From an uncultured Acidimicrobiales bacterium (lineage in GTDB: Bacteria > Actinomycetota > Acidimicrobiia > Acidimicrobiales > Aldehydirespiratoraceae), in assembly GCA_958296055.1 (NCBI GenBank), contig CATQHS010000001.1:1190277-1254276 (forward strand): a stretch of 64,000 bases of DNA, written 5' to 3'. The notes beneath the pieces were generated by a model. It searched no databases, had not been told where the DNA came from, and saw nothing but the letters and a program-made list of their open reading frames with translations. The position numbers were made by a program, and so were the translations under genes. Shown here one piece after another: positions 1,548 through 56,978 of the stretch. Every line of letters begins with the position of its first letter. Position 1 is the stretch's first letter.

Positions 1548-2552
1548 ATGGCCAAATGCCACTACTGCGGCGAGTCGGCCGGGTTCCTGCGGTCAGTGCA
1601 CAAGGAGTGCAAGGAACGCGACAAGCAGGCCAAGCAGCAAAAAGAGAACGCCCAGCAGCAGATGCGTGAGATGTGCAAGGACGCAGCCCGCAGCGGGATC
1701 GGCTTGGACGACCTCCCCGACCGGATGCGCGCCGCCGCCGCCCGCGCCGGATTCTCGCTGGACAGCGAACAGCTCTACACCTACATGTCAGACGGGTGGG
1801 GCCAAGCGCTGGAGGAGGGACTGGCCGACAGCTACCTCTCCGCGGCCGAGATCTCCAAGCTCAACCGGTTCCGCACACATCTGGGGATCCCCGAAGAGTG
1901 GCTCAACCGCTCCGGGGACTTCGACAAGTTCCGACTGTCCATCTCATTGGGCTACCTGAAGGACGGCGTCATTCCCCGGTTCGACATGCCGCGGTCCCAG
2001 CTTCCCTTCAACCTGATGAAGAGCGAAGAGATGATCGCCTTGTTCGATGACGTGCGGTACTACAAGGAGGTGACGCGCCGCGAGTACCGGGGCTCGTCCA
2101 TGGGCATGAGCGTCCGGGTGGCCAAAGGCGTGTATCTGCGGCCCGGAACGTTCCGGGGGCGGCCGGTCGAGACGGTCAGCATGGAGCACCAAGACGACGG
2201 CACCCTGGGGCTCACCACCAAGCACCTCTACTACCTCGGTGAAAGCACCGGCAGAAGCTTCAGAATCCGGCTGGAGAAGATCGTCACCTTCGACCCCTAC
2301 AACGACGGGCTGCGGATCATGCGCGACACCGCGGCCGCCAAGCCCGAGGCCTTCATCATGGAGAACGCGGACGCGTGGTTCTTGATCAACGCCATCTACG
2401 CCGTGCTCGACATGGACGAAGTGACGCTCCCCCGCGCCGATGCCCCGACGATCGACGACCTCCTCGAGGACGTCATCGGCGACCCCCAAGACAGCGGTGC
2501 CGACGACGGCTTCGCCCTCGGCGGCGGAGGCATGCACTCCCTGGGGAACTGA
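1548..2552 (+). CDS. Unknown protein: N-terminal zinc finger, C-terminal PH-like region
   Basis: Translation from the ATG at 1548 gives 334 residues beginning MAKCHYCGESAG; the open frame extends upstream, but this start places a CxxC at the N-terminus. Visible parts are a treble-clef-like zinc site (CHYCG and later HKEC within the first 21 residues), a charged Q/K-rich helix, a helical middle (LNRSGDFDKFRLSISLGYLKDG) and a C-terminal beta-rich block (GTLGLTTKHLYYLGES, then FRIRLEKIVTFDPYNDGLRI) that resembles a PH-like fold. The tail is acidic then Gly-rich. I do not recognise a named family. It sits 64 bases before the AbiE toxin-antitoxin pair on the same strand, in a defence neighbourhood, so a defence or sensing role is possible but only by association. 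Confidence 0.75.
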   Translation: MAKCHYCGESAGFLRSVHKECKERDKQAKQQKENAQQQMREMCKDAARSGIGLDDLPDRMRAAAARAGFSLDSEQLYTYMSDGWGQALEEGLADSYLSAAEISKLNRFRTHLGIPEEWLNRSGDFDKFRLSISLGYLKDGVIPRFDMPRSQLPFNLMKSEEMIALFDDVRYYKEVTRREYRGSSMGMSVRVAKGVYLRPGTFRGRPVETVSMEHQDDGTLGLTTKHLYYLGESTGRSFRIRLEKIVTFDPYNDGLRIMRDTAAAKPEAFIMENADAWFLINAIYAVLDMDEVTLPRADAPTIDDLLEDVIGDPQDSGADDGFALGGGGMHSLGN

Positions 2553-2604
2553 ACGCGATGTCCGGGGCGGCTCTGCTTCGGGCAGCTTTGTCACTTTGGC
2601 GTGG

Positions 2605-2616
2605 TATGATTGGAGG
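2605..2616 (+). promoter_or_regulatory. Probable leaderless promoter of the AbiE pair
   Basis: TATGAT at 2605-2610 is a near-perfect -10 hexamer and is followed after six bases by the ATG at 2617, so transcription should begin at or next to the start codon. The GGAGG at 2612-2616 touches the ATG directly, too close for a normal Shine-Dalgarno. TTGTCA at 2588-2593 is only 11 bases upstream of the -10, too near for a standard -35. Leaderless start is common in actinobacteria. Confidence 0.5.
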
Positions 2617-3357
2617 ATGCGGCGGTCTGCTTGCATCGAGTACCTGCGGGAGGTGCCGGTCGGCACTTTCTTGACGGTCGGCGATCTGCCGGGCTCCCCC
2701 GCCGCGGCCCGGCAATGCCTGGCCCGGGAGGACCGCAACCCGTACGGCCTGGTGCGCCGCGCCGCCCACGGCCTGTACTGGCGGACCGATCACTTCGACC
2801 CGCCGCTGTTGACCCGCAACGGCAAGACCATCACCAAGACCGCGCCGAGCGCAGAGGCCGTAGCAGTGCACATGGCCGGACCCGGTTGCGGATTGACTGG
2901 CTATGACGCTCTGCGCCAATTCAGACTGACTACGCAAATCCCAGCGCAGCTCTGGCTGGCAGTGGTGGGCCGTCCGCCCCAATCACCCAAGCGGAAAGGT
3001 CCGAAGATCCGCTTCTTCGGCCGATCAAACGTGATGAGACGCGAACTCACCTTCTTGGAAGTCACATTGCTTGAAGCGCTGCGATATTACGAGACGTTCG
3101 GCCAAGTCGAGCCTTGGGGAGATGCGATGATCTCATTCGCCTGGGCCTCGCGCAGCCATCACCAAAGGCAACTAGACAGCCAGGGGTTAGAAGTGCAGCC
3201 GCCTCTGCCAGTCGGAAGGCATGATCTTATTCGCGAAGTAGCTCGCCGTGATGATCCGCGACTCGGTCATATATATCTGGATCGGCTGGATCAGGTTTTG
3301 GGTATCGCTGCCGATGCTTACCGATTCGCTCGACTTCATATCATGGATGCGCAATGA
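2617..3357 (+). CDS. abiEi: AbiEi-family antitoxin (type IV toxin-antitoxin)
   Basis: A 246-residue protein with the layout of AbiEi antitoxins: an N-terminal winged-helix part (IEYLREVPVGTFLTVGDL, then LVRRAAHGLYWR) that in the family binds the operon's own promoter, followed by a larger domain (AHMAGPGCGLTGYDALRQ, QIPAQLWLAVVGRPP) needed to neutralise the toxin. It overlaps the next gene by four bases (ATGA at 3354-3357), the typical AbiEi-AbiEii arrangement. The first half is GC-rich and the second half, from about 2900, drops sharply in GC, joining a low-GC block that covers the toxin gene. This suggests a recombined or recently acquired module. Autorepression through the winged helix is expected from the family. 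The call rests mainly on position plus the wHTH/DUF-type pattern. Confidence 0.75.
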   Translation: MRRSACIEYLREVPVGTFLTVGDLPGSPAAARQCLAREDRNPYGLVRRAAHGLYWRTDHFDPPLLTRNGKTITKTAPSAEAVAVHMAGPGCGLTGYDALRQFRLTTQIPAQLWLAVVGRPPQSPKRKGPKIRFFGRSNVMRRELTFLEVTLLEALRYYETFGQVEPWGDAMISFAWASRSHHQRQLDSQGLEVQPPLPVGRHDLIREVARRDDPRLGHIYLDRLDQVLGIAADAYRFARLHIMDAQ

Positions 3358-4277
3358 TCGATGATGTGATTATAAACGCCATTCAAGAGGTGGTGGAAGA
3401 TACTGGGCTACTACCTGACCAGGTTTATCACGACCATCAGCTCGTGCAAATGGCTGCAAAATTGTGTTACCCTCTAACTGTTTATCACGACGTCAAGCTG
3501 GTGCTTAAAGGAGGAACTGCCCTAGCCAAGCAAGGCATCACGACACGGTTCTCAGAAGACATTGATATTGGCATCGTTCCCCCTCCTCACGGAACGTTCG
3601 GCAACAAGAAGCGCGACCGGTGCATGGACGAGATCAAGACACGTGCACTAGCGCTTTGGCCAAATGAGTTTGAAATACGGTCTGGCAAATGGTACAGCTA
3701 CTATATTATACCTTACCACCCGTTGAAAGAACAGGAGGCTAACCAAAGACAAGAGCCTGTCGTCAAAGTTGAGGCTACCGTCAACACTGGAATCGGTCGC
3801 TACGAGACAACGGAGCTGCTGTCTCTGATATCTGAACACCTTGAAATAGATACTAAAGATGAACCCTTACCACAAGTTCTCTGTTGCCATCCACTGGAAA
3901 CGTTGGGCGAAAAATTGCACGCACTGAATAGAATAATAACCCATGAACCGCCAGAGCGAATCACTTCCCGAGTCAGAGATATCTACGATATTGCCTGTAT
4001 TTTGAATGCATACGGATATGAGCTTGAACCAGGAGACATAAACTCGCTCTATGAAGCAGCCAACCGTCCCGAAGGCGACCGTCTTCGTCTCTCTCGTCTT
4101 ACCCCTATCCCACCCGACGGATTGCGTTCATTAGATATATGGCATCCCGGTACCAAAAGGTACAGCCTGTTGAAAGAGGCATTTGAGACCGATATCGTGC
4201 CTCTCGTTTACGGATTGCAAGACCTCTCGTTCGAGGAATGCATGTACAAGATCCAGGCCCACATACACCTCATGTAG
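3354..4277 (+). CDS. abiEii: AbiEii/AbiGii-type nucleotidyltransferase toxin
   Basis: A 307-residue nucleotidyltransferase-fold toxin. The catalytic signature is LKGGTALAKQ (residues 51-60) followed by SEDIDIGI with the two metal-binding aspartates D69 and D71. A family-typical ETLGEKLHAL (around 181-190, Lys about 187) and RVRDIYDIACIL follow. Members of this family modify nucleic acid (tRNA 3' ends in characterised mycobacterial relatives) and cause abortive infection when freed from AbiEi. GC is roughly 48%, against about 70% for most genes here, and codon use differs accordingly, so recent transfer is likely. It is translationally coupled to the antitoxin by an ATGA overlap. It converges on the broken 3' part of the restriction-modification gene, 52 bases away. 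Confidence 0.88.
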   Translation: MIDDVIINAIQEVVEDTGLLPDQVYHDHQLVQMAAKLCYPLTVYHDVKLVLKGGTALAKQGITTRFSEDIDIGIVPPPHGTFGNKKRDRCMDEIKTRALALWPNEFEIRSGKWYSYYIIPYHPLKEQEANQRQEPVVKVEATVNTGIGRYETTELLSLISEHLEIDTKDEPLPQVLCCHPLETLGEKLHALNRIITHEPPERITSRVRDIYDIACILNAYGYELEPGDINSLYEAANRPEGDRLRLSRLTPIPPDGLRSLDIWHPGTKRYSLLKEAFETDIVPLVYGLQDLSFEECMYKIQAHIHLM

Positions 4278-4329
4278 GTCTGCCACCTTCCAGGCGGCAG
4301 CCTGGTAAACCGCCCGCGGCATTGTGCCA

Positions 4330-5026
4330 CTACGTGAGGGACGGGGGGAGGGCGGAGACTATGCGGTGGGTTTCGGTGCCGACGTGGGCGAGGCGGCGCA
4401 GGTGGCGGATCAGCTCGAAAGGGTCGTCGGCCCAGGCGTGCCAGCCGTTCGGGTCGTCGGTGATACCCGAAGCCTTGTCGTGCTTGAACTTGAGTTGGTC
4501 GACGGCCCACTGGAGCGGTGAGCGGCCCGACACCTTGTAGGCGTGGGCCTCGGGCGGGATGCCGACGAGGCGGCAGCGGTTTGTTGACCACCAGCATGTC
4601 CCAGTCGTCGTTCTTGCCGCACTTGCTGCCGTCGGCATTGCGACCCTGCATGCGCTTGCCGGTGATCCGGTAGGCGTCGGGGTCGGCGTCGCCCTCGTCG
4701 GGCTCGTCGGCGACCAGGCACACGACGCCAGGGCACTCGGGGCAGGTTTCGTAGCCGACATGCAGGTCCATGAGGGCCCGGCCCGCCGACCGGAACGCCT
4801 CAAAGTCCTCGGCCAGCGGCACCCGGGGCAGGTTGCGGGCCAAGTCGTGGCGGTAGCGCTCCCGCCAGTCCGGGGCGTGCATCACCCCGTACAGGTACTC
4901 CCAGATGTCGTCCTTGGTGATGGACTCGTCGCCATAGCGTTCATGGAATTGCCCCAAGCACCAGTCGGTGACGTTGTGACCGTCGCCAGACGACGCTTCG
5001 AGACCAAGGTCAAGAGTCTCGGTCAA
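4330..5026 (-). pseudogene. Detached, frameshifted C-terminal piece of the type ISP enzyme
   Basis: This encodes the conserved C-terminal helical part expected at the end of the neighbouring type ISP protein: NVTDWCLGQFHERYGD, then ITKDDIWEYLYGVMHAPDWRERY and LPRVPLAEDFEAFRSAGRALMDLHVGYE. Near 4578 the frame breaks: MLVVNK in one frame continues as RCRLVGIPPEAHAYKVSGRSP in the next, down to a TAG at 4330, as if one base had been inserted in an AACAAACC context. The first usable start is the TTG at 5026, whose TTGA overlaps a stop at 5023-5025. The piece is separated from the main gene by the 107-bp repeats. It could be made as a separate polypeptide by re-initiation, but the internal frameshift argues for decay. 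Confidence 0.75.
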
Positions 5027-5129
5027 GGTTTCATCCTTATGGCCACTCTGCCCGCTGGATCCACGGCGTGAAGGTCTGGCGGTATCCCGGCTGCAAGTGT
5101 TGCGAAACGTGTACGGTTTGATGGGCTAG

Positions 5130-9533
<4,404 letters not shown>

Positions 9534-43022: not shown

Positions 43023-44885
43023 ATGTGCGGAATAAGTGGTATATACCTCAAAGACGGAGCCAGTATCGATCCCAATATAGTAAACAAAATGGCCGACTCT
43101 CTTAACCACCGTGGGCCGGATTACAAAGGGGTTTATGTAGACGGTTCTCTGGGTTTAGGACATACACGGCTGAGCATCCTTGATCTTTCGACGCGGGCCA
43201 ATCAGCCTATGCAATCACCTGACGGCCGGTACATCATAGTTTACAATGGTGAAGTCTACAACTTCGGTGAAATAAGACAGATCTTGTCCGCCAAAGGACA
43301 CCGCTACCGCGGACACTCTGACACCGAGGTCGTCCTCCACGCAATTATGGAATGGGGGGTAGAGGCATTTGCCAGGTTTGAAGGCATGTTTGCCATAGCA
43401 GTTTGGGACAACCATGAACACCGCATACATTTAGCGAGGGATCGATTCGGCATCAAGCCCCTCTATTTTTGTGACACCACAAATGAAATAATTTTCGGTT
43501 CCGAAATCAAAGCCATACTTGCCTCTGGTAAAGTTCAGGCTCGCATCAACTGGGCGGGCCTGCACGAATACATGCACTACGACACCGCCCTGAACTCCAA
43601 CACGATGTATATGGGAATCCACAAACTTCTGCCTGGGCATCTGCTTACTCTGGATGCGAACAGTACAAAGCTTGAGCCGTACGTGTCGCTCTTCCAAACG
43701 GGACAGATCGAAGACGATTTATATACTGCGACTGACACCGTGCGAGATATGCTTGAGAGAGCAATAAAGAACCACTTAGTTAGTGATGTTCCGGTTGGCG
43801 TATTCCTCAGCGGAGGCATCGACTCCTCTGCCATCACCGCTTTCGCCAGCCAACACTACAGCGGACGGCTGAAGACGTTCTCAGTCGGCTTTGACTTTGA
43901 CAAGGGCGTTAACGAACTTTCTCAGGCTCGTATAGTAGCCAATCGCTTCAATACGGACCATCAGGAGATGCACCTTTCGGGTGGGAATCTCACCGATATT
44001 ATCCCGCGTTTGATTCGTTGCTACGATGAGCCGTTCGGTGATCCGGCCAGTATTGCCTTGTATCTGCTCAGCGAACAAGTGGCAGGAGATCCCAAAGTTA
44101 TCCTCATGGGAGATGGAGGCGATGAGATCTTCGCCGGGTACACTCGTTACACTATAGGTGAGTATGAAAAGTTGAAACATCTAATAGCTCTAACTTCTCC
44201 GCTCATCCCTAAAAAGAGCATATGGCATCGGCGATTTAAGGCTGTCAATACCTTCTATAATGCCAAGCCTTCTCTGCGCATGGCTCTGATAATGTCGGGC
44301 AACAATTGGAGCGCCCCCTTCTTGAAAGTGTTTACACCGTGGGCCAACTCATTATTAGACGCCAGTGACCCTTTCCAATGTCACCGGGAGTTCTATGAAC
44401 GATACGAGCACCTTGATCCAGTACAACGTATGCTTTATACCGACTGCAACATAATACTGCCTGATCTATATTTTAAGAAAGTAGACCGGACAACTATGGC
44501 CCATGGTATCGAAGCAAGAGTGCCTATGGTTGACACCAGGATGGCCGCATATGTGATGTCATTACCGTCGGCTTACAAAGTAAAGGGGCGAGAGAAGAAA
44601 TATATTCTACGCCAAGCACTGAAAGACACACTGCCTGCGGCTATTCTTGACCATCCAAAGACCGGGTTCAGCGTGCCGATACCGTTCTGGTTGCGGACAT
44701 CCCTAGCCGATTACCTGCGGTCTACACTGTTTGATTCCAGCCTTCTGAATGACGGATTGCTTGACAAGCTCACCTTGGAGCACTGCATACAGGAGCACTT
44801 GGGCGGGAGGAGAAACAACGGCCGCCTGCTGTATCGGCTGTTGAACTTGGCCCTGTGGTACGAGGAGTACCAGGTCGCAAGCTGA
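43023..44885 (+). CDS. asnB: Glutamine-hydrolysing asparagine synthase
   Basis: A 620-residue AsnB-type enzyme. MCGISGIY places the catalytic Cys at position 2 for the class II amidotransferase; SLNHRGPD and RFGIKPLYF are glutaminase motifs. The synthetase domain has VFLSGGIDSSAITAF (PP-loop SGGxDS) and ILMGDGGDEIFAGYTRY. Such enzymes make asparagine or act in amidation of secondary metabolites and surface glycans. GC is about 48%, against about 70% around it; the drop begins almost exactly at the start codon, so the gene looks horizontally acquired. Confidence 0.93.
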   Translation: MCGISGIYLKDGASIDPNIVNKMADSLNHRGPDYKGVYVDGSLGLGHTRLSILDLSTRANQPMQSPDGRYIIVYNGEVYNFGEIRQILSAKGHRYRGHSDTEVVLHAIMEWGVEAFARFEGMFAIAVWDNHEHRIHLARDRFGIKPLYFCDTTNEIIFGSEIKAILASGKVQARINWAGLHEYMHYDTALNSNTMYMGIHKLLPGHLLTLDANSTKLEPYVSLFQTGQIEDDLYTATDTVRDMLERAIKNHLVSDVPVGVFLSGGIDSSAITAFASQHYSGRLKTFSVGFDFDKGVNELSQARIVANRFNTDHQEMHLSGGNLTDIIPRLIRCYDEPFGDPASIALYLLSEQVAGDPKVILMGDGGDEIFAGYTRYTIGEYEKLKHLIALTSPLIPKKSIWHRRFKAVNTFYNAKPSLRMALIMSGNNWSAPFLKVFTPWANSLLDASDPFQCHREFYERYEHLDPVQRMLYTDCNIILPDLYFKKVDRTTMAHGIEARVPMVDTRMAAYVMSLPSAYKVKGREKKYILRQALKDTLPAAILDHPKTGFSVPIPFWLRTSLADYLRSTLFDSSLLNDGLLDKLTLEHCIQEHLGGRRNNGRLLYRLLNLALWYEEYQVAS

Positions 44886-47022: not shown

Positions 47023-48225
47023 ATGACCGAAGCCGTCATCGTCGCCACCGCCCGCACCCCCATAGGCCGGGCCAACAAGGGGTCGCTGACCCAGGTCCGG
47101 CCCGACGACATGTCGGCTTTCGTCATCGCCGACGTGCTGTCCAAAGTGCCGGGCCTCGACTCCGCCGACGTCGAGGACGTCATCTGGGGCATCGGCCAGC
47201 CCGGCGGCGAGGGCGGCTACAACATCGCCCGGGTGGCGTCGGTGCTGGCCGGGGTCAACGCCCCGGGCGTGACCGTGAACCGCTACTGCTCGTCGTCGCT
47301 GCAGGCCATCCGCATGGCGGCCCACGCCATCAAGGCGGGCGAGGGCGACTGCTTCGTGACCGGCGGCGTGGAGACCGTGTCCCGTTACGGCAACGGCGCG
47401 GCCGACACCGGCCCCCACAACGACTCGTTCTCCTCGGCCGAGGCCCGGACCCAGGCCCGCACCGGCGCCGGGACCGACGACTGGGCGCCCCCCGAGGGGC
47501 TGCCCGACCTCTACATCGCCATGGGCCAGACCGCCGAGAACGTGGCCCAGCACAAGGGCGTCTCCCGGCGGGCCCAAGACGAGTGGGGGGTCCTGTCCCA
47601 GAACCGGGCCGAGGCCGCCCGGCGCCGGGGCCTGTTCGAGCGGGAGATCACGCCCTACCCACTGGCCGACGGCACCTTGGTGAGCGCCGACGACAGCATC
47701 CGGGAGGGGACCACCCTCGAGGGCGTGTCCCAGCTCAAGCCGGTGTTCCGACCCGACGGCACCGTGACCGCCGGCAACGCCTGCCCGCTCAACGACGGGG
47801 CCGCGGCGGTGGTGGTCATGTCCGACGCCAAGGCGGCCCGGGTGGGGGCGGCGCCGCTGGCCCGGGTGGTCGCCACCGGGGTGTCGGCCCTGAACCCCGA
47901 GATCATGGGGCTGGGCCCGATCGACGCCTGTCGTCAGGCCCTGGGCCGGGCCGGCATGACCATCGGCGACATCGACCACGTCGAGATCAACGAGGCCTTC
48001 GCGGCCCAGGTGCTGCCCTCGGCCGACGAGCTGGGGATCGACCACGACAAGCTCAACCCCAACGGGGGCTCCATCGCCCTGGGCCACCCCTTCGGCATGA
48101 CCGGGGCCCGTATCATGACCACGCTCCTCAACGGCCTCGAGGACGCCGACAACGCCGTCGGGCTCGAATCAATGTGTGTGGGCGGGGGCCAGGGCATGGC
48201 CATGATCGTCGAGCGCCTCAGCTAA
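47023..48225 (+). CDS. Thiolase (acetyl-CoA acetyltransferase)
   Basis: A 400-residue thiolase. The nucleophilic Cys lies in NRYCSSSLQAIRM, the His in NGGSIALGHPFGMTGAR, and the second Cys in ESMCVGGGQGMAM. It cleaves or forms 3-ketoacyl-CoA in beta-oxidation or related breakdown. It faces the aldehyde dehydrogenase and its 3' end converges on the Wadjet jetD gene, 20 bases away. Confidence 0.95.
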   Translation: MTEAVIVATARTPIGRANKGSLTQVRPDDMSAFVIADVLSKVPGLDSADVEDVIWGIGQPGGEGGYNIARVASVLAGVNAPGVTVNRYCSSSLQAIRMAAHAIKAGEGDCFVTGGVETVSRYGNGAADTGPHNDSFSSAEARTQARTGAGTDDWAPPEGLPDLYIAMGQTAENVAQHKGVSRRAQDEWGVLSQNRAEAARRRGLFEREITPYPLADGTLVSADDSIREGTTLEGVSQLKPVFRPDGTVTAGNACPLNDGAAAVVVMSDAKAARVGAAPLARVVATGVSALNPEIMGLGPIDACRQALGRAGMTIGDIDHVEINEAFAAQVLPSADELGIDHDKLNPNGGSIALGHPFGMTGARIMTTLLNGLEDADNAVGLESMCVGGGQGMAMIVERLS

Positions 48226-48245
48226 TCGAGGCGGCAGGCACCAGT

Positions 48246-49496
48246 TCAGAGGCCGTGAACGCTGCGAAAGCGCGCCTCCATGCGGCTGAAATCGTCGAGA
48301 ACGCCATCGAGCACGAGTTCTTCGTGAATGACGAGTCGACGGGATTCGAAAACGGCTTGGAGCGCCGTATCCCACGGCGTGGTTCCGCAGTCTTTGGAGT
48401 CGACCTCAAGCCGCACATCAGTCCGCTCGGCCAGGCGGATGGCGTCTTCGTAGTCGGTCGAGTCCATCATCCACGGCGTGCAGCCCATTTCATGCATCCG
48501 GCGGCAGATGGCGATCCCCGGCGCATCGAAGTCGCCGTGGTACCAGATCGAGGCCCCGGATCTTTGCAACTGCCGCAGGAGTGTGGTCACAGCGGTCGAA
48601 GGGTTGCCGTTCGACGAGATGACACTGCTCGTGAGGTTGTGCTCGGCAGCCGCCTCGACCAGACGGGGATTCTCGACGACTAGAACGGGTACGCCCCGAG
48701 GAACCGAGACGGGATGCCTTTGCAGCGCCATCAGGCTGACATGGAGAGGAAGCGCTCCGGCCGATGCCGCTCGGATCTGTTCGTCGAGGGCCGACGATCC
48801 GATGACGGGGAGCGACCAAGTCAATGCCGGGGCCGAGACGCGGTCGGCCAGAATCCCCGCCCTCTCCCAGAGTTCGCGCCCTTCAAACTGACCCACCCGT
48901 TGGCGCAGGGCATGGATCGCGAAGGCGGCCAGCCTCGTGCCCTGATCTAGGGCGTGAGCCGATCCGAAGAGCTTGGCGGCGATCTCGGTGCGGCTGGCAC
49001 CGGGCGGCGCGGCGTGATCGAGGTAATCAAGCAGGCACCGCACATCGGCGATCAGGGTTTCGACGGTGTCGCGGTCGAGGCCGCCGAGCAGTCCCGAGCG
49101 AAGGATGCCGTCGGCCCATTCGGTCGCCCACGGCTCCTTCCAGGACGCGACGGCGCAGGTCAGCGCTTCTCGGGCGGCGCCGGAGCGAGCCCGGGCGGCG
49201 CGGCGCTGGGCGGCGTCGGGCGATGGCGGGTGGCCGAGACGGGTGAGGGCGTCGCTCAGATCGTCGCCGACCCTGCGGGTTACCAGCGCCTTCTCCAGCT
49301 CCCCGAGGTCAAGGCGTTTGGTTGGCTTGCGCCCGAGCAGTGATTCGAGGACCAGGCTGCTCGGCCGATCGAGGTCGGGTCGGGTGACAGCGCCGCGGCG
49401 CTGAGACCCGAAGCGATCGAGTTGCTGACGTGCCGCCGCCCACACTGGCGCCATGCCGGGGCGGCGCAGCGAGTGGGGGACGGAGCCGGGCGTCAC
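48246..49496 (-). CDS. jetD: Wadjet JetD: TOPRIM nuclease (TIGR02679/DUF2399)
   Basis: A 416-residue protein, last gene of the Wadjet operon. The C-terminal TOPRIM domain has VLVVENPRLVEAA (catalytic Glu) and IWYHGDFDAPGIAICRRM (DxD). The N-terminal half is the DUF3323-like part. JetD in studied Wadjet systems is the endonuclease that cuts closed circular DNA after the SMC complex extrudes it. It overlaps jetB by four bases (ATGA at 49493-49496). It is followed by the thiolase in the opposite direction. Confidence 0.88.
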   Translation of the reverse strand: MTPGSVPHSLRRPGMAPVWAAARQQLDRFGSQRRGAVTRPDLDRPSSLVLESLLGRKPTKRLDLGELEKALVTRRVGDDLSDALTRLGHPPSPDAAQRRAARARSGAAREALTCAVASWKEPWATEWADGILRSGLLGGLDRDTVETLIADVRCLLDYLDHAAPPGASRTEIAAKLFGSAHALDQGTRLAAFAIHALRQRVGQFEGRELWERAGILADRVSAPALTWSLPVIGSSALDEQIRAASAGALPLHVSLMALQRHPVSVPRGVPVLVVENPRLVEAAAEHNLTSSVISSNGNPSTAVTTLLRQLQRSGASIWYHGDFDAPGIAICRRMHEMGCTPWMMDSTDYEDAIRLAERTDVRLEVDSKDCGTTPWDTALQAVFESRRLVIHEELVLDGVLDDFSRMEARFRSVHGL

Positions 49497-50653
49497 AGCA
49501 GCGCGGTCTGCTCCATGACGACATCCGGCCCTGACCTGTCCTCGTCGGATTCGATGTCAACGCTGTATCGCCAGGCCGCGGGAAGAAGACGGACGGTGTC
49601 GCCGTCGGTGTCAGCGAGGCGGTGGTCTTGCAGCAGCTCCAGGATTTCGGCGGTGAGGCGGTCCGGGTCGGCGGCGAGCTGCGACCAGTAGCGGCGATGC
49701 TCCTCGGCCAACTCGGCCACGGTGTCTGTGAGCGCGCCGCGTTCGATCAGGGTGCAGTCCGTCTCGATGAGCCGGTCTATGAGCAGCAGAGTGGCATGGC
49801 CGACGGTGCCGCTGAACGGGAAGCGTTCGTCGGTCAGCCCGCCGTCCGGGTCGATCGCCATGACTCCCTCAGCGCGGGCCTCGATGTACAGCCCGAACAT
49901 CTCATCGAAGATGGCGGACTCCTCGCCCAGCCGGTTCCGGAGTTCCGTCCATTCCTCGTCGGTGAGATCGGTGCGGTACAGCACGGGTTCTTCCAGAAGG
50001 ATCGAGCGCATCCACGCCCGGGACGACAGCCGTTGATCGGAGCGGTCGAGCACTTGCTCAACCCTCTCGGAACGGGCGAGCACCGGAAGCGGCAGGAGAG
50101 CGACGCGGTCGGATCGGATACGCAGCACAGCGTCGGCTTCGCCGTCGGCGATGTAACGATCGACGCGGTCGTGCATCTCGCTCGCTATGCCGTGGTGGAT
50201 CATCCATCTCAGGGCTGCGACAAGCGCGCGCCGGTCAGCCGATTCCTCAGTGAGAGCGATGTCAGCGTCGATCGCCGCTGAGCGGATCTCATGGATGAGG
50301 TCGCGCAAGCTGATCACACTCGGGCCCGCCGCGACCGCGGCCAGCGCCAAGGCGAGCATCGTGTACTCGCGCACAGAGAACGGCCGGCTCTGGGCGGTCG
50401 TCGTCCGCAGTGGGCGCCGATTGGCGACGATGGTCGTCTTGAACAGGCGGGCCGTGTCGGCCGTGACCTGCAGGCGGTATCCGAAGCGCTGGGTGAACCA
50501 TCGGTCGAGCATCTGCTCGTGCCGCCGGATCATCATGAACGTGTCGGGATCGCGCTCGGCCAGCACGAGCGGATGAGTGGCGAGACCGCGGGCCGCATCC
50601 CGAAGATCGAGCCTCTGACGAGGGTCAGCGCCCGCGACAACCGGCGTCCTCAT
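49493..50653 (-). CDS. jetB: Wadjet JetB: TIGR02678/DUF2398 protein
   Basis: A 386-residue protein from ATG 50653; the frame is open higher up, but this ATG lies in an ATGA overlap with the jetA stop and starts the recognisable sequence (MRTPVVAGADPRQRLDLRDA). RDPDTFMMIRRHEQMLDRWFTQRFGYRLQVTADTARLFK is typical of TIGR02678/DUF2398. JetB is the winged-helix 'kite' subunit that holds the kleisin of the SMC complex. It overlaps jetD by four bases. Confidence 0.85.
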   Translation of the reverse strand: MRTPVVAGADPRQRLDLRDAARGLATHPLVLAERDPDTFMMIRRHEQMLDRWFTQRFGYRLQVTADTARLFKTTIVANRRPLRTTTAQSRPFSVREYTMLALALAAVAAGPSVISLRDLIHEIRSAAIDADIALTEESADRRALVAALRWMIHHGIASEMHDRVDRYIADGEADAVLRIRSDRVALLPLPVLARSERVEQVLDRSDQRLSSRAWMRSILLEEPVLYRTDLTDEEWTELRNRLGEESAIFDEMFGLYIEARAEGVMAIDPDGGLTDERFPFSGTVGHATLLLIDRLIETDCTLIERGALTDTVAELAEEHRRYWSQLAADPDRLTAEILELLQDHRLADTDGDTVRLLPAAWRYSVDIESDEDRSGPDVVMEQTALL

Positions 50654-52224
50654 CGTGGCCGCGGCGACGATCCGGTCGGTCCGGCCTCGTTCGCGGCCGT
50701 GACGGTGACCACGAGGTCGCGCATGGCGAGCCGCCCGTCCGGGGATTCGACGAGGGTGCGGGCGCCGGCCACTCGACGCACACCGCAGCAAACCCCGTCG
50801 GAGGTCGCCGTGCGGAAGTTCCCGATGCCAGCCCTGAGACCGGACCGGCTGATGAGATCGCACAACATCACGAACGAGGCGACTGACATCCGAGCTCCGT
50901 CGATTCGGCCGCCGTCACCGGCGCACGACAGCAGTTCGGCGGCGACGGTTTCGCGGGCTACACGGTCCCGGTCGCGGCGCCGACACAGCAGCTCCCGTTC
51001 TCGCTGCCGGTTGCGCACCGGTGTGCTCCCGCCCCGCTGGCTTGTGTCGCCCCGTTCGCGCAGCGACACCGGGACAGCGGCCCGTGGAGCATCTCGCCAC
51101 GGTGTGACGGTGGGAGCGGGGTCGTCGGCGTCCTCGGACAGCAAGCCGAGATGACGGCACGAGCCGAGCCCGAACCCGGCGGCGGCGATCTCATGGGCCT
51201 CTCCGATCGTGGTTGCTTGATCGAAGAACCTGGCCAGGCGCACAAAGTCAGAGCGCCTCGACGCCGTGCCCAGTCCGGCCCGTGACAGTCGGGTGACGTT
51301 CGCGGTAAGGGTGCGCACCGCAGCCACCGCCTGACCGGTGTACTGATTGAGCCGCGAAGCCCGGCCCGGCGACGACACGAACCATGCCGCGAGGTGCTCC
51401 CAGTCGTCGATCCTCGTGCCCGGAAGCCTGCGCACCGATATGCGATCGTCGAGCCCGGCATCGTCGACCCGCGCGGCTAGCCCGGACTGGAGCGCCGGAA
51501 GCAGGTCCGGCAGATGGGGGCGGATCATCTCCAGGCTACGAGCTATCGGGCGAGCCATGCGTTCGATCTCGGTGAGCTGTTCGGCGACGTAGTTGACGAG
51601 CACCTCGGCAAAGAACTGGACCTCGTCGGCGTCAAGGTCGTAGCGGCTCTGCCACAGGTTGAGCTCGGCGAAGAACTGCGTCAGTTCGGTGGTGAAGCGT
51701 TCGTGGTGATCGAACACGGCGCGCACCACCGCGGCAAGGCTCTCATCGGCGGCGCGGTCGAACCCAGCGCCCAACTCGCTCAGCTCCGTCAGGGCGCGGT
51801 GCAGATCGCGCAGGCGGCCCGCCTGCACATCGCCTATCTCGTCGGCTTGGGCGAGCACGCGTTCGACGAGTTCGAACACCTCCTGACCGGAGCGGGTGAT
51901 CAGGTAGCGATTGCGTCTCCAGTAGTAGTCGTCGAGACTCGACGGGTTGCCGACTGACGACGACACCGTGAGGTTCCCCCAGCGGCGGAGGCTCTCGAGC
52001 CGATCGGGGACCACGTCGGGGTCGACTCCGAATTCGGCGACGGCAGCCGCCACTTCGCCCGGCGTGAACTCGGCGAAGAAGGTGCCGGCGAACACCTCGA
52101 GGATGGCTCGGTACTCGTGCCATTCGTCGCCGCCGAGATACCGGAACAGCGTCCGAGCGCCAACCGGATCGCCGCCGGAGTCGCTTCGGCCTCTCTCGGG
52201 GGACCTGTTCTGTTCGTCGGTCAC
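50650..52224 (-). CDS. jetA: Wadjet JetA: TIGR02677/DUF2397 kleisin-like protein
   Basis: A 524-residue TIGR02677/DUF2397 protein: LFRYLGGDEWHEYRAILEVFAGTFFAEFTPGEV at the N-terminus, DDYYWRRNRYLITRSGQEVFELV, and a helical core. JetA is the kleisin subunit bridging the SMC heads. It overlaps jetC by four bases upstream (52221-52224) and jetB by four downstream (50650-50653), so the whole operon is translationally coupled. Confidence 0.85.
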   Translation of the reverse strand: MTDEQNRSPERGRSDSGGDPVGARTLFRYLGGDEWHEYRAILEVFAGTFFAEFTPGEVAAAVAEFGVDPDVVPDRLESLRRWGNLTVSSSVGNPSSLDDYYWRRNRYLITRSGQEVFELVERVLAQADEIGDVQAGRLRDLHRALTELSELGAGFDRAADESLAAVVRAVFDHHERFTTELTQFFAELNLWQSRYDLDADEVQFFAEVLVNYVAEQLTEIERMARPIARSLEMIRPHLPDLLPALQSGLAARVDDAGLDDRISVRRLPGTRIDDWEHLAAWFVSSPGRASRLNQYTGQAVAAVRTLTANVTRLSRAGLGTASRRSDFVRLARFFDQATTIGEAHEIAAAGFGLGSCRHLGLLSEDADDPAPTVTPWRDAPRAAVPVSLRERGDTSQRGGSTPVRNRQRERELLCRRRDRDRVARETVAAELLSCAGDGGRIDGARMSVASFVMLCDLISRSGLRAGIGNFRTATSDGVCCGVRRVAGARTLVESPDGRLAMRDLVVTVTAANEAGPTGSSPRPR

Positions 52225-55200
52225 CGTCCGCTTCGCCTTTCGCGGGCGGCACCGTCCCAGCGGTAGTGCTCAAGCAGAATCACACCGAGTGTTGCATCGC
52301 GCACGACTTCGGTGATGGCCAGTTCAGGCACGGTCGGGAAGGTGCCCCACAGCCGCTCGCTGGTGGCGATCAGGTCCAAGTCGAGTTCGACGAGCAATCC
52401 GAACAGCGCAGCGTGGTTGTCCTCGGACACTTTGGCGAACGCGTCGTCAAGCAGGACGAACCTGGCGATGTGGGATCGGCCGTCATCAGCGGATCTGTGC
52501 TGTTCGGCCAGCGCGTCGTAGGAGGCAGCCACGGCCGCGAAGAGCGAGAGGTAAGTGACGAGCTTCTTTTCGCCCTCCGACAGCGGTGTCCTGCGGCCGA
52601 GCCGGGAGGGCTTATCGCCTGCTCGGCGGATCATCACCGACATTTCGTGCCATCGCCTGTAGTCGAGCGTGTCGGCGATGAGTTGACGGTACGGAACATC
52701 GGGATGCATCGCCCGCGCCTCGTCAAGGCGGCGGGACAACGCCGAGCGCAGCTCGAGCTCGTCATCGTCAGTGCGCAGATCGGGAAGCTTCGCCAGCAAA
52801 TCAACCATGCGCGCCGTCGTGTCGTCGATTTCAGGGGATCGGCGCCATCGCAGTTGGACCCCCACCTGATGCGCGGTCATCACCGCGCCGAGACGCTCGT
52901 TCATCAACTCGACCAACCGCTCGGCTCCATGGATCTTCTCGGCGACCTCACGGGCGATCAAGCCTTGCAGCAGCTCGCGCAGAGCCGCGTCCTGCTTGCG
53001 GTCGAGCAGGTTCTCAAGCTGCCGGTGCTGTCCCGACACCGCCTGCACGGAGGCCGCCAGCGTCGCTCTTCCCGACGGGCCGGTCACTTCGACAACCATG
53101 GGAAGCATCGGATCGGGCTGGCGGGCTTCGGCGTCCCAACCTACGCCGAGGGTGTCACGGCGCTGCATCAAGGACTGTCGGACACTGTCAGCGTTGACCG
53201 GGCTGGCTCCGGCGGCGTCGCCGACGGGCAGCACAAGCTCAACGGCGTCCAGCACCTCGCGCAGACCGTCGGGGCCGACTGACCGGGCGACTATGGCTTC
53301 AGCAGGCTCGGGGCCGACCGGGCGGGCCGCTGTCGTTTCGGTCGGTTCAGCGGGGCCGCGGATCGCGCCGATGAGCCCGGGCATCGCCAGCACCTCCATC
53401 AACGACCGCAGTGTCGCGTCGCACTCCTGTTCGGCCTCGGCGCGTTTGCCGGTCGCGTTGTGGGCCTGGGCGAGCGATTCCGCCCGCCGCTCGACGGCGA
53501 GGTCTCGCTCTTCGCGGGTCGTCGGCAGGCGTGTCTCTGCCTCTTTCAACTCGATGGCGCATCGATCGCGAGTGGCTGCAACCTCGGCGTACTCCAAACC
53601 GATGCTGTCCTCAATAGTGGCCAGGCGGGCGCGCTCACTGTCGCGCCTCGATCTGATGGCGGCCAGTTCGCTCCGCTCAGCGCGGAGGTCGGCGGCGGCC
53701 GTCCCCCAAAGGTCGGCGGCGCTGCGCCAGTCGCCAACCGATCGTCGCAGAGCGTCGATCTGGTGACGGCATCGCTCCAGAGCCGACGCCAGCTCGCTCA
53801 GATCCTCGCGAACCACCTTGAGGCGGTCGCCATCGGCGGGGAGATCCAGCGTTGTCGCCACCCGGTGGAGCGCGTTCGATGCGTCGATCGATGCCGATTC
53901 CGCTTTGGCCACATCCCCGGCTTTCGCCGCTCGTTCCGCTTCGGCCGCCTCACTTGCCGCTTCAGCGGCATCGGTTTGCGCGCGCGCCGAGACGATCATG
54001 TCAGTGGACGGCAGTTCCGACCGATGTCGTCTCGCCTGGTCAAGCGACTCTTCGCACTTGGCCAGTTCGGCCGCGCTGTGGGCCACAACGGCCCGGGCTT
54101 GGTCCAATCTTTCGCCCGCTTCCCTCCGGGCTTGGTCGAGCGCAGCACGGCGGGCGGTCACCCCGATGAACTCGGCTCGCTCCTTGAAGTGCCGGCCGCG
54201 AAGCGACCCGATTCGGAAGGCGCCGTCGACTGCGACGGCGGTGGCGGCGTCGCTCCATATGTCGCCTGAGATCGATTCGAGCAGCTTGGCCACCAGACCC
54301 TCGTCCACCTCTCCGATGAGCCGGTCCGGCACGGTCACGATCAAGCAGTCGCTCAGCGGTCTGGGCACCCCGCCGCCGACGACGGCGACCAGTTCGCCGC
54401 TCGACAGCTCGAGGGCTCCGTCATCGACCAGGCGAGCCGTGAGCAGCCCGGAGGCTTGCAGGGCCGCTTCAAGGCCGGCGCGCTCGGCTTCACCGAGTTG
54501 GGGCGCGAAGTCGATCAAGTCGGCGAAGCAATGGTCCGCGGCGGTCTGCCAGTCCTGTCGGGGGGCATCAAGCTCGGCTCGCGCCGCCAGATCGTCTACG
54601 AGCGCTTGCGCCTCCTCCTCTGCCGCTTGCTCACCGGCGAGTCGAAGGCCGACTGCCGCGGCCGCGGATTGCCAGTGACCGGCGAGAGCGTCAGCCTCGG
54701 ACACCAGCCGAGAACGCACAGCCTCAGGGTTGTCGCTCGCCGATTCTTCCTGCTCTGACCTGTTTGATCCGTTCGCGGCAAATGCTGCCGTCGTGGGCGC
54801 CTCCACGCCGGCAGCTCGCAGACGGGGAAGGAGATCAGATGCCCAGAGCCGAACCTGGTCGGCCCATCTGCTTCGGGTTTCGCTCAGGCGCTGAGTTAGC
54901 TCGACGAACCGCTCCCGCGCCCGGTGGGCTGCGCTTTCTGCGACTCCGTACGCCGATTCCGCGAGCTCGAGCTCCCGACCAGCGGAATCAAGGGCGGCCT
55001 GCGCCGTCTCGACTGTGTCGACATCGGCGTGTCGTTCCAAGACTGCGGCACCCATCGCCGCCACCTGCCTACCGATGACGGTGGTGTCGAGAGGTTCGCT
55101 CGGTTCGGCCGAATCAATGCCCGCGAGCGCGGACTCAGCCACTGCGACCGGCCCGAGCGGCAGGTGAGCGATCCCGCCGCGTTTGCCCAGACCAGTAGCG

Positions 55201-56414
55201 GCCGCTAGACGAGCGTTGAGATCAGCCAGATCGTCTCGGCCGCGGCGCTGGGCCTGCTGCAACTGTCCACCGGCGGACTCGGCACGCTGTTCGCAACTGG
55301 CGACCCGTCCAGCCGCGCTCTTGCACTGATCGGCCAGGTTGGCGACGAAGTCGCGCAACGCTTCGAGGCGCCGGCCGTCGCGGTAGGCCTTCGATGCCTC
55401 CAATGCGGAGATCTCGGTGCGCAAGTTCCGGGCCTCTTTCTCAAGGTCGTCAATGGCGGCGTCGAGTCGCTTGACCGCCATCTCGGCCGCCGCCGCGGCT
55501 TGTTGCTTGCTCTTCTCCTCGCGAGCGCAGCGCCGCAGTTCTTCAAGGCAGGCGCGCCCCCCGGCAACCCGCTTTCTCAGTTCGCTCACGCAATACGAGC
55601 GGTATACGTCGAGGAGGCCTTGGATCGCTTTGAACGTCTGCGCCAGACCGGCGACGTTGCGGCGGTGCTCTTCGAGGTCGTCGAGCGGCTGAGCGGCCTC
55701 GGCCAGCGCCTGCTCTGAGAGCTGCGGCAGCGCGTCCACCAGATAAACCGGGAGATCCACGTCGATCCGGTCGCCGATGCGCGGGTTGCGCACCTTGTCG
55801 ATCAACCTGATGTGCTGGTCAAGCTGCGCCCCGCCGAAAAGACGGCCCTCGACGGCCCGGCGGTAGTCGCGACGGCGGCGCTCGCTGAACACCTCGTCCC
55901 CGTCGAGGGCGGCGCGCAGCCCGTCGGCCGACAGCGAGACGTTTCCCTCCAACAGCCGCAAGTCGATGCCGGGCCGCTTGGACGTTATGAACCACCATGT
56001 GGTCACCGTGCCGGACTGCCGGTTGGCTTTGATGCCGCAGCCGCACACCAGGAACTCGCCCTGCCGCTCGAACTCGATCCACAGGTAGCCGACCGGCTGG
56101 GCGTCGTCGTGGCCTTCGAGCATCCACGACTTGAGGATCCCGCTCTGCTCCCCGGCCGCGTCGATGCGGCCGGGACGGGCGGTGAGCAGGAACGGCAACA
56201 GCATGTTCATCGCCGTCGACTTGCCGGAGCCGTTCACGCCGCGCAAGAGCAGCCGGCCGCCGCCGAAGTGCAGCACCTCGTTCTCGTATTGGTAAACGTT
56301 GACGATGCCGGCGCGATTCAGCCGCCACCGCCCGCCCGCCGCGTCGGTGTGGGTTGGGGCTCCGCCCGCCTCCCGAGCGCTCACTTCGGAGACGGTATAG
56401 GGCCGGTGTGACAT
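52221..56414 (-). CDS. jetC: Wadjet JetC: SMC/MukB-like ATPase (TIGR02680)
   Basis: A 1397-residue SMC-like ATPase from ATG 56414 (a TTG one codon upstream is possible). Walker A is GVNGSGKST at residues 59-67 of the N-terminal head. A very long coiled coil with Ala/Glu/Arg heptads fills about residues 270-1100. The C-terminal head has LSEGEKKLVTYLSLF (ABC signature) and FVLLDDAFAKVSEDN (Walker B). It matches TIGR02680. JetC extrudes plasmid DNA loops in this defence system. Here it is the first gene of the operon, 54 bases after dps on the same strand. Confidence 0.92.
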   Translation of the reverse strand: MSHRPYTVSEVSAREAGGAPTHTDAAGGRWRLNRAGIVNVYQYENEVLHFGGGRLLLRGVNGSGKSTAMNMLLPFLLTARPGRIDAAGEQSGILKSWMLEGHDDAQPVGYLWIEFERQGEFLVCGCGIKANRQSGTVTTWWFITSKRPGIDLRLLEGNVSLSADGLRAALDGDEVFSERRRRDYRRAVEGRLFGGAQLDQHIRLIDKVRNPRIGDRIDVDLPVYLVDALPQLSEQALAEAAQPLDDLEEHRRNVAGLAQTFKAIQGLLDVYRSYCVSELRKRVAGGRACLEELRRCAREEKSKQQAAAAAEMAVKRLDAAIDDLEKEARNLRTEISALEASKAYRDGRRLEALRDFVANLADQCKSAAGRVASCEQRAESAGGQLQQAQRRGRDDLADLNARLAAATGLGKRGGIAHLPLGPVAVAESALAGIDSAEPSEPLDTTVIGRQVAAMGAAVLERHADVDTVETAQAALDSAGRELELAESAYGVAESAAHRARERFVELTQRLSETRSRWADQVRLWASDLLPRLRAAGVEAPTTAAFAANGSNRSEQEESASDNPEAVRSRLVSEADALAGHWQSAAAAVGLRLAGEQAAEEEAQALVDDLAARAELDAPRQDWQTAADHCFADLIDFAPQLGEAERAGLEAALQASGLLTARLVDDGALELSSGELVAVVGGGVPRPLSDCLIVTVPDRLIGEVDEGLVAKLLESISGDIWSDAATAVAVDGAFRIGSLRGRHFKERAEFIGVTARRAALDQARREAGERLDQARAVVAHSAAELAKCEESLDQARRHRSELPSTDMIVSARAQTDAAEAASEAAEAERAAKAGDVAKAESASIDASNALHRVATTLDLPADGDRLKVVREDLSELASALERCRHQIDALRRSVGDWRSAADLWGTAAADLRAERSELAAIRSRRDSERARLATIEDSIGLEYAEVAATRDRCAIELKEAETRLPTTREERDLAVERRAESLAQAHNATGKRAEAEQECDATLRSLMEVLAMPGLIGAIRGPAEPTETTAARPVGPEPAEAIVARSVGPDGLREVLDAVELVLPVGDAAGASPVNADSVRQSLMQRRDTLGVGWDAEARQPDPMLPMVVEVTGPSGRATLAASVQAVSGQHRQLENLLDRKQDAALRELLQGLIAREVAEKIHGAERLVELMNERLGAVMTAHQVGVQLRWRRSPEIDDTTARMVDLLAKLPDLRTDDDELELRSALSRRLDEARAMHPDVPYRQLIADTLDYRRWHEMSVMIRRAGDKPSRLGRRTPLSEGEKKLVTYLSLFAAVAASYDALAEQHRSADDGRSHIARFVLLDDAFAKVSEDNHAALFGLLVELDLDLIATSERLWGTFPTVPELAITEVVRDATLGVILLEHYRWDGAARERRSGR

Positions 56415-56468
56415 CAAGGCCAGTTGTCCGGCCTCGGTCTACTGCGAGTCCGGGGCGATCGGGGCGGC

Positions 56469-56978
56469 TCAGGCCAGCAGGCTGCGCAGCATCCAGGCCG
56501 TCTTCTCGTGGACCAGCATGCGCTGGGTCAGCAGATCGGCGGTGGCCTCGTCGTTGGCCGCCTCCACCATCGGGAACACCGACCGGGCGGTGCGCACCAC
56601 CGTCTCCTGGCCGGCGACGAGGCGCCGGATCATCTCGTCAGCGCCGGGGGCGTCGCCCTCCTCGGGCACCGACGACAGCTCGGCGAACTGGCGGTAGCTG
56701 CCCGGGGCCGGCTCGCCCAGGGCCCGGATCCTCTCGGCGATCTGGTCCACGGCCACGGCCAGCTCGGTGTACTGCTCCTCAAACATGAGGTGCAGCGTGT
56801 TGAACATGGGGCCGACCACGTTCCAGTGGTAGTTGTGGGTCTTCAGGTAGAGGGTGTAGCTGTCGGCCAGGAGCCGGGACAGGCCCCCGGCGATGGCGGC
56901 CCGGTCGGCCTCGTCGATGCCGATGTCGATGGCCGGGGCCCGGCCGATTCGGCCCGCGGCTCGGTCAGCCCTGCCCAC
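56469..56978 (-). CDS. dps: Dps-family ferritin-like DNA-protection protein
   Basis: A 169-residue Dps from GTG 56978. [42 protein letters not shown] contains the His-His-Trp, Asp/Glu ferroxidase motif found at the dimer interface of Dps dodecamers. It stores iron and shields DNA from peroxide. Its start overlaps ilvC by 14 bases, an unexpected partner, and jetC follows 54 bases on, so Wadjet could be read through from the ilv-dps transcript. Confidence 0.93.

Follow-up and report, generated by a model that had tools for sequence, protein, structure and literature searches.

The window analysed here, a 64,000-nucleotide stretch of a contig from an uncultured Acidimicrobiales bacterium, carries four genes resembling those of the plasmid-defence system Wadjet, and the gene for the structural maintenance of chromosomes (SMC) subunit leads the operon. 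This raises the questions of whether the operon is a complete system, to which type it belongs, and whether its gene order is a quirk of one genome. We consider it, with a probability of about 85%, to be a Wadjet type II system directed against plasmids, intact and acquired horizontally, and belonging to a branch with the order C-A-B-D. The four jet genes occupy 48246-56417 on the minus strand, with no internal stop in any frame, and run 5' to 3' as jetC, jetA, jetB and jetD. An earlier note on this DNA had placed them correctly without stating the strand, and its description of a complete Wadjet operon led by the SMC gene, in an order unlike A-B-C-D, was borne out. It had also read ATGA at every junction; a four-base overlap is present at each, but the shared bases differ, as listed below.

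jetC, 56417 (TTG start) or 56414 (ATG start) to 52221, minus strand: SMC-type ATPase of 1398 or 1397 amino acids (TIGR02680; PADLOC JetC2)
C/A junction, 52221..52224, minus strand: overlap of four bases, GTGA
jetA, 50650..52224, minus strand: kleisin-type subunit of 524 amino acids (DUF2397; TIGR02677; JetA2)
A/B junction, 50650..50653, minus strand: overlap of four bases, ATGA
jetB, 49493..50653, minus strand: KITE-type subunit of 386 amino acids (DUF2398; TIGR02678; JetB2)
B/D junction, 49493..49496, minus strand: overlap of four bases, GTGA
jetD, 48246..49496, minus strand: TOPRIM nuclease subunit of 416 amino acids (DUF3323 and DUF2399; JetD2)

Searches with hidden Markov models of the four families that had been named (TIGR02677-02680) gave scores above the cut-off for JetC against TIGR02680 (638.5 bits, cut-off 462.85), JetA against TIGR02677 (194.5 bits, cut-off 165.85) and JetB against TIGR02678 (150.6 bits, cut-off 124.65), with JetD just short of the cut-off of TIGR02679. 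Pfam agreed for all four proteins: the set DUF2397, DUF2398 and DUF2399 passed, and DUF2399, DUF3323 and JetD_C were all above their cut-offs. Given these scores, chance is ruled out as the source of the family matches. The best PADLOC models were all of type II (JetC2 911.8, JetA2 438.5, JetB2 310.7 and JetD2 309 bits), and jetA, jetB, jetC and jetD are co-localised as in Wadjet of any type. By its sequence, the operon is Wadjet type II within the PADLOC definition of types. The earlier note had guessed type III, and JetD does match one type III model, PDLC00594, with 27 bits where its type II model gives 309. For JetA, JetB and JetC no type III PADLOC model is listed, and the Pfam set of DUF2397, DUF2398 and DUF2399 passes; since every subunit is best matched by type II models we regard type III as scarcely credible. 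PADLOC does not separate the two gene orders: PDLC00553 came out as the best JetC model in three proteins of each order.

The catalytic sites were then located in the window as follows.

JetC Walker A, GVNGSGKST: 56214..56240, minus strand, residues 60-68 when numbering begins at the TTG
JetC ABC signature, LSEGE, residues 1279-1283: 52569..52583, minus strand
JetC Walker B, residues 1320-1325, a region with LLDD at its end: 52443..52460, minus strand, Pfam SbcC_Walker_B at 53.3 bits
JetD TOPRIM core with E275, D322 and D324: 48522..48689, minus strand, invariant in a 30-row alignment

Walker A, the signature and Walker B are kept in JetC, and the TOPRIM glutamate and DxD pair in JetD. Inactivating mutations in the ATPase or TOPRIM sites had been set beforehand as grounds for rejecting the original reading; none was found. 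The copy could nevertheless have been decaying and inactive: the relative G035 has a broken, partly inverted copy, and other relatives have split jetC frames. Against this, the window has four full-length frames, kept catalytic residues and all junctions preserved, and we consider decay very improbable here.

By sequence, JetC, JetA and JetB resemble the chains of those names in PDB 9qe0/9qe1: JetC matched 9qe0_A (E 3e-52), JetA matched 9qe0_E (E 1.4e-21), and JetB matched 9qe0_D with E 6.1e-20 when a profile of 28 sequences was used and E 0.0098 without it. We take these entries to be the Neobacillus vireti complex, an unconfirmed identity that we draw from a reference listed in PMC12647877. 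For JetD, no relative was found among PDB sequences, and a profile search returned chance matches only (ribosomal protein S3). Its AlphaFold model, built from 30 sequences, had a mean predicted local distance difference test score of 95.5, and a fold search with the model gave only three matches with E < 0.001: the Corynebacterium glutamicum nuclease MksG (8b7f, E 1e-6), Pseudomonas aeruginosa JetD (7til, E 6.4e-5) and the topoisomerase VI A subunit (1d3y, E 3.3e-4). A second comparison with 1d3y gave Z 14.5 over 236 residues with a root-mean-square deviation (rmsd) of 4.5 A, covering JetD residues ~118-410. Whole-chain overlays were loose (rmsd 4.5 to 12.3 over the ten best rows), which movement of the domains could explain. 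JetD thus combines the TOPRIM acidic residues with a predicted topoisomerase VI-like fold. This fold is common to the topoisomerase VI A subunit and Spo11, but the topoisomerase works without SMC partners and we claim no membership of that family. Wadjet type I (JetABCD or MksBEFG) has the same four roles, and its MksG and JetD are the proteins whose folds the JetD model matches; it differs in its sequence families, with weak type I model matches of 35 bits for JetC and 23 bits for JetD, and in its order, given as A-B-C-D (mksFEBG) in a figure legend of PMC10123090.

We examined gene order in a phylum sample of 396 genomes, a class sample of 395 genomes and the 51 genomes of the window's family. 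TIGR02680 was matched in 41 of the 396 genomes, 25 of them above the cut-off, and JetA, JetB and the JetD C-terminal domain were located in 37 genomes chosen from earlier matches. Among these 37, whenever a genome from outside the window's family had A and C assignable to a single contig, it read A-B-C(-D); in G316, of the phylum set, jetD lies upstream and divergent. Within the family, 13 of 51 genomes matched the SMC family and nine carried the C-A-B-D operon (G000, G003, G010, G031, G033, G454, G458, G459 and G457), with G457 split between two contigs so that only C-A-B is visible. The family also includes a rearranged genome with jetA split across an inversion (G035), a contig-end fragment (G017) and two weak matches (G005, G463). 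In G035, locus L051 (on the same contig as L115) is a broken C-A-B-D copy in pieces on both strands, with the jetC C-terminal and jetA N-terminal parts on one strand and what remains of jetA on the other, together with jetB. JetA was found in 15 of the 395 genomes of the class sample; reading 1.5 kb on each side of it placed C before A in seven and gave A-B-C(-D) in seven, with one unreadable fragment. Two of the seven with C before A (G735 and G741) are the same loci as L098 and L090 and belong to families other than the window's.

A scan of named genomes with a single JetC protein yielded 49 stretches, none of them confirmed. A scan that used 12 aligned JetC proteins gave 485 relatives, and the best 80 of these loci comprised 22 C-A-B-D, 57 A-B-C-D and one rearranged operon (L115), some of each order having no recognisable jetD or running off the contig. 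The C-A-B-D hosts are Acidimicrobiia of several families (including Desertimonas flava and Microthrixaceae), Frankia, Pseudonocardia and Actinomycetospora and, from metagenome assemblies only, three Granulosicoccaceae, one other proteobacterium and one member of the Myxococcales. Two Granulosicoccaceae operons have G+C contents of 0.51 and 0.52, close to their flanks (0.48 and 0.50) and far from actinobacterial values, which argues against simple mis-binning at these two loci; the third (L105) stands at 0.69 with flanks at 0.61. Bacillota and betaproteobacterial plasmid loci (Cupriavidus, Alicyclobacillus and Priestia) are A-B-C-D. The earlier note had named C-A-B-D being the norm for the subtype as something that would refute it, and this is half the case: it is the norm for the operon's own branch, but for type II the norm is A-B-C-D. 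The window operon departs from this usual order; as the entire branch with its order is type II by sequence, it counts as a type II variant and not as one of the A-B-C-D members. The Wadjet literature examined, which did not include the founding Wadjet paper or the type II structure paper, contained no description of C-A-B-D.

In some loci of either order the nuclease gene could not be recognised. The Actinomycetospora loci L109, L111 and L113 read C-A-B, and their near relative L114 has jetD. Type II A-B-C operons with no recognisable jetD despite at least 5 kb after jetC were seen at L120, L122, L131, L137, L144, L157, L160, L162, L163, L166, L065 and L069, and many such loci are in Rhodococcus and Nocardiopsis. 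Their nuclease may be divergent, may have been lost, or may be replaced by another effector.

We next built a tree for each gene, leaving out 17 of 123 rows: split contigs (L075-L082, L086-L088), rearranged loci (L051, L115), duplicates (L095, L097), one locus with multiple frameshifts (L146) and one with a split jetC (L050). On every tree the C-A-B-D operons formed a single clade with one order change: 27 of 106 rows for JetC (support 100), 27 of 105 for JetA (support 100), 26 of 105 for JetB (support 98) and 22 of 88 for JetD (support 100). A smaller mixture-model tree of JetC agreed (9 of 32 rows, support 100). L062, a long A-B-C-D row, adjoins the C-A-B-D clade in the JetC tree. The order could instead have arisen many times by independent shuffling and so be uninformative on descent: operon order can be labile, as the displaced jetD of G316 and the inverted, split jetA of G035 illustrate. 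When order labels were shuffled, however, about 20-24 changes were needed against the one observed on each tree, and no C-A-B-D operon was found deep inside an A-B-C-D clade among the 106 JetC rows. Residues common to C-A-B-D rows and rare in A-B-C-D rows also speak against repeated shuffling, which we judge highly unlikely. These marker columns, in which a single residue fills 95% or more of the C-A-B-D rows and no more than 5% of the A-B-C-D rows, come to 23 in JetC, 21 in JetA, 4 in JetB and 0 in JetD; they are uncorrected for clade size and therefore mark descent and are no proof of changed function. On these gene trees, the gene-order variant of type II is the mark of one clade crossing phyla, not a quirk of this genome. 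Since A-B-C-D occurs in Bacillota and other branches, C-A-B-D is likely the derived order, a direction read from this distribution and not from a rooted tree. It most likely arose once from A-B-C-D, by C moving ahead of A-B, possibly when a tandem duplication of A-B-C was followed by unequal loss; it would then have been kept while the operon spread between hosts.

Compared with type II A-B-C-D operons (Streptomyces, the Cupriavidus and Alicyclobacillus plasmid loci, and JetABC of 9qe0/9qe1), the window operon has the same four subunit families and PADLOC type, and is alike in its ATPase and TOPRIM residues and four-base overlaps. It differs in having the SMC gene first and not third, and in the clade-specific residues of its branch in JetC, JetA and JetB; in the alignments made, its proteins are 22-37% identical to those of the A-B-C-D rows. 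The earlier note had taken tight coupling as a sign of fixed subunit ratios. Leaving out 15 split, rearranged or duplicate loci, four-base overlaps were counted in A-B-C-D operons at 63 of 79 A/B, 58 of 80 B/C and 50 of 66 C/D junctions, and in C-A-B-D operons at 23 of 28 C/A, 16 of 27 A/B and 13 of 23 B/D junctions, if anything less strictly. As such overlaps are equally usual in A-B-C-D operons, they give no ground for special subunit ratios here. That the new C/A and B/D junctions are coupled as well is in keeping with a general selection for coupled translation.

What the complex would do can be drawn from published Wadjet systems. According to PMC10586767, PMC12647877 and PMC10123090, JetABC is an SMC motor that senses DNA shape and size by extrusion, and JetD cuts closed circles on completed extrusion, all four subunits being required. 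PMC12287153 reports that deletion of native jetABCD raised plasmid uptake in Clostridium cellulovorans. The window operon most likely encodes a loop-extruding SMC nuclease that would act against plasmids. JetA, JetB and JetC would form a motor reeling in DNA; a small closed circle, once wholly extruded, would activate JetD, which would cut it, so that plasmids would be lost and the chromosome spared. The intact active sites support carrying this mechanism over to the C-A-B-D branch.

We then investigated how the operon came to its present site, which is bounded as follows.

Thiolase gene, 47023-48225, plus strand: flank of the insert
Insert, 48226..56468, no strand assigned: the whole interval between the thiolase stop and the dps stop, with ~80% DNA identity to Wadjet-free relatives on both sides
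dps/ferritin-like gene, 56469-56978, minus strand: flank of the insert

The thiolase and dps genes are convergent, and the operon takes up the full gap between their stop codons. The identity to Wadjet-free relatives stops at 48223-48225 and resumes at 56463-56476. Relatives with no match to Wadjet also have these two genes facing each other, with other DNA in between: ~1.3 kb in G452, holding one 388-amino-acid frame that has no Pfam match, 3.4 kb in G013, and 5.2 kb in G456, part of which encodes an M78 peptidase of the ImmA/IrrE type; G455 keeps only dps remnants. Three carriers (G010, G031 and G033) have the orthologous thiolase without adjoining Wadjet, the operon being on another contig, and in G458 and G459 contig ends bar placing the operon relative to the thiolase. 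The jet genes have a third-position G+C of 0.78-0.82, against 0.94-0.96 for five housekeeping neighbours (thiolase, aldehyde dehydrogenase, dps, ilvC and ilvB). The variable site, the lower third-position G+C and the differing placement in relatives together are good evidence for a horizontal gain. L098, from another family, is the closest row to the window in both the JetA and the JetD tree, consistent with transfer between families. For repeats and attachment sites, the analysis covered a direct reading of the two insert edges.

The placement also bears on whether the operon might be a housekeeping SMC complex, a chromosome organiser like MksBEF or MukBEF with JetD as an accessory and no role in defence. 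Wadjet resembles Muk systems according to PMC9252829, and the operon is on the main chromosome contig. Such a role sits poorly with the patchy occurrence in the family described above, with the operon lying elsewhere in three relatives, with its foreign-looking G+C and with an intact TOPRIM nuclease gene, and we find it very improbable.

Several points weigh against an intact type II defence system of a C-A-B-D branch. JetD scored 190.7 bits against TIGR02679, about 5 below the cut-off of 196, over a nearly full-length alignment. No sigma-70 promoter was recognised upstream of the operon, and jetC starts only about 54 bases past dps. In several relatives with the order C-A-B-D, the jetC frame is broken or jetD cannot be recognised. 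The main trees come from short, quick searches, and distant groups are under-sampled, since the 80 loci were the nearest among 485. The published mechanism comes from type I or unspecified systems and would be carried over to this type II branch by inference; PMC10586767 notes that most work to date is on type I and that types II and III may differ from it.

Other features of the region were recorded. Three terminator-like sites were at chance level. Clustering the flanking frames of C-A-B-D loci led us to propose no accessory fifth gene; the recurrent flanks were only neighbours common to Actinomycetospora, a few common to members of the family, and general frames of ABC transporter or dehydrogenase-like type. 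In one relative (L231) the thiolase-dps gap encodes, at 4123-5271, an ImmA/IrrE-type M78 peptidase (PF06114, 57 bits) with distant matches to the PADLOC capP and RmrA models. In the window, an asnB-like asparagine synthase at 43023-44885 (plus strand) has a G+C of 0.50 and 0.56 at third positions, near genes at 0.94-0.96, and looks like another foreign gene. At 5130-9533 (minus strand) lies a type ISP restriction-modification enzyme of very large size, with Mrr_cat_2, ResIII, ISP coupler and C-terminal domains, adjoining a low-G+C stretch (0.575 at 4-6 kb). At 2440-4277 (plus strand, G+C 0.578), the frame 3354-4277 matches AbiEii (PF08843, 74.5 bits); it shares four bases with a preceding frame that has no Pfam match and could be its antitoxin.

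The branch might be a functional Wadjet II subtype and not only a re-ordered one. Its motor heads differ, with a fixed Walker A tail of GKST in place of GKSK/R and a signature of LSEGEKK in place of LS[QG]GE; the residue after the last S of Walker A is T in all 22 C-A-B-D rows with a letter there and K or R in 72 of 77 A-B-C-D rows. The SMC-first order might also, as a guess, supply more JetC per transcript. We think a distinct functional subtype unlikely; if it is one, the ATP cycle, the rate of loop extrusion or the circle size that triggers cutting could change.

This is a known kind of system in a variant gene order, and its likely mechanism is unsurprising. The analysis corrects its type to II and shows that, within an acidimicrobial genome, the operon occupies a variable site. 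By gene order, the type II loci sampled split into two stable architectures, one of them a single clade crossing phyla, which makes gene order an easy guide when divergent type II complexes are to be picked for biochemical work.

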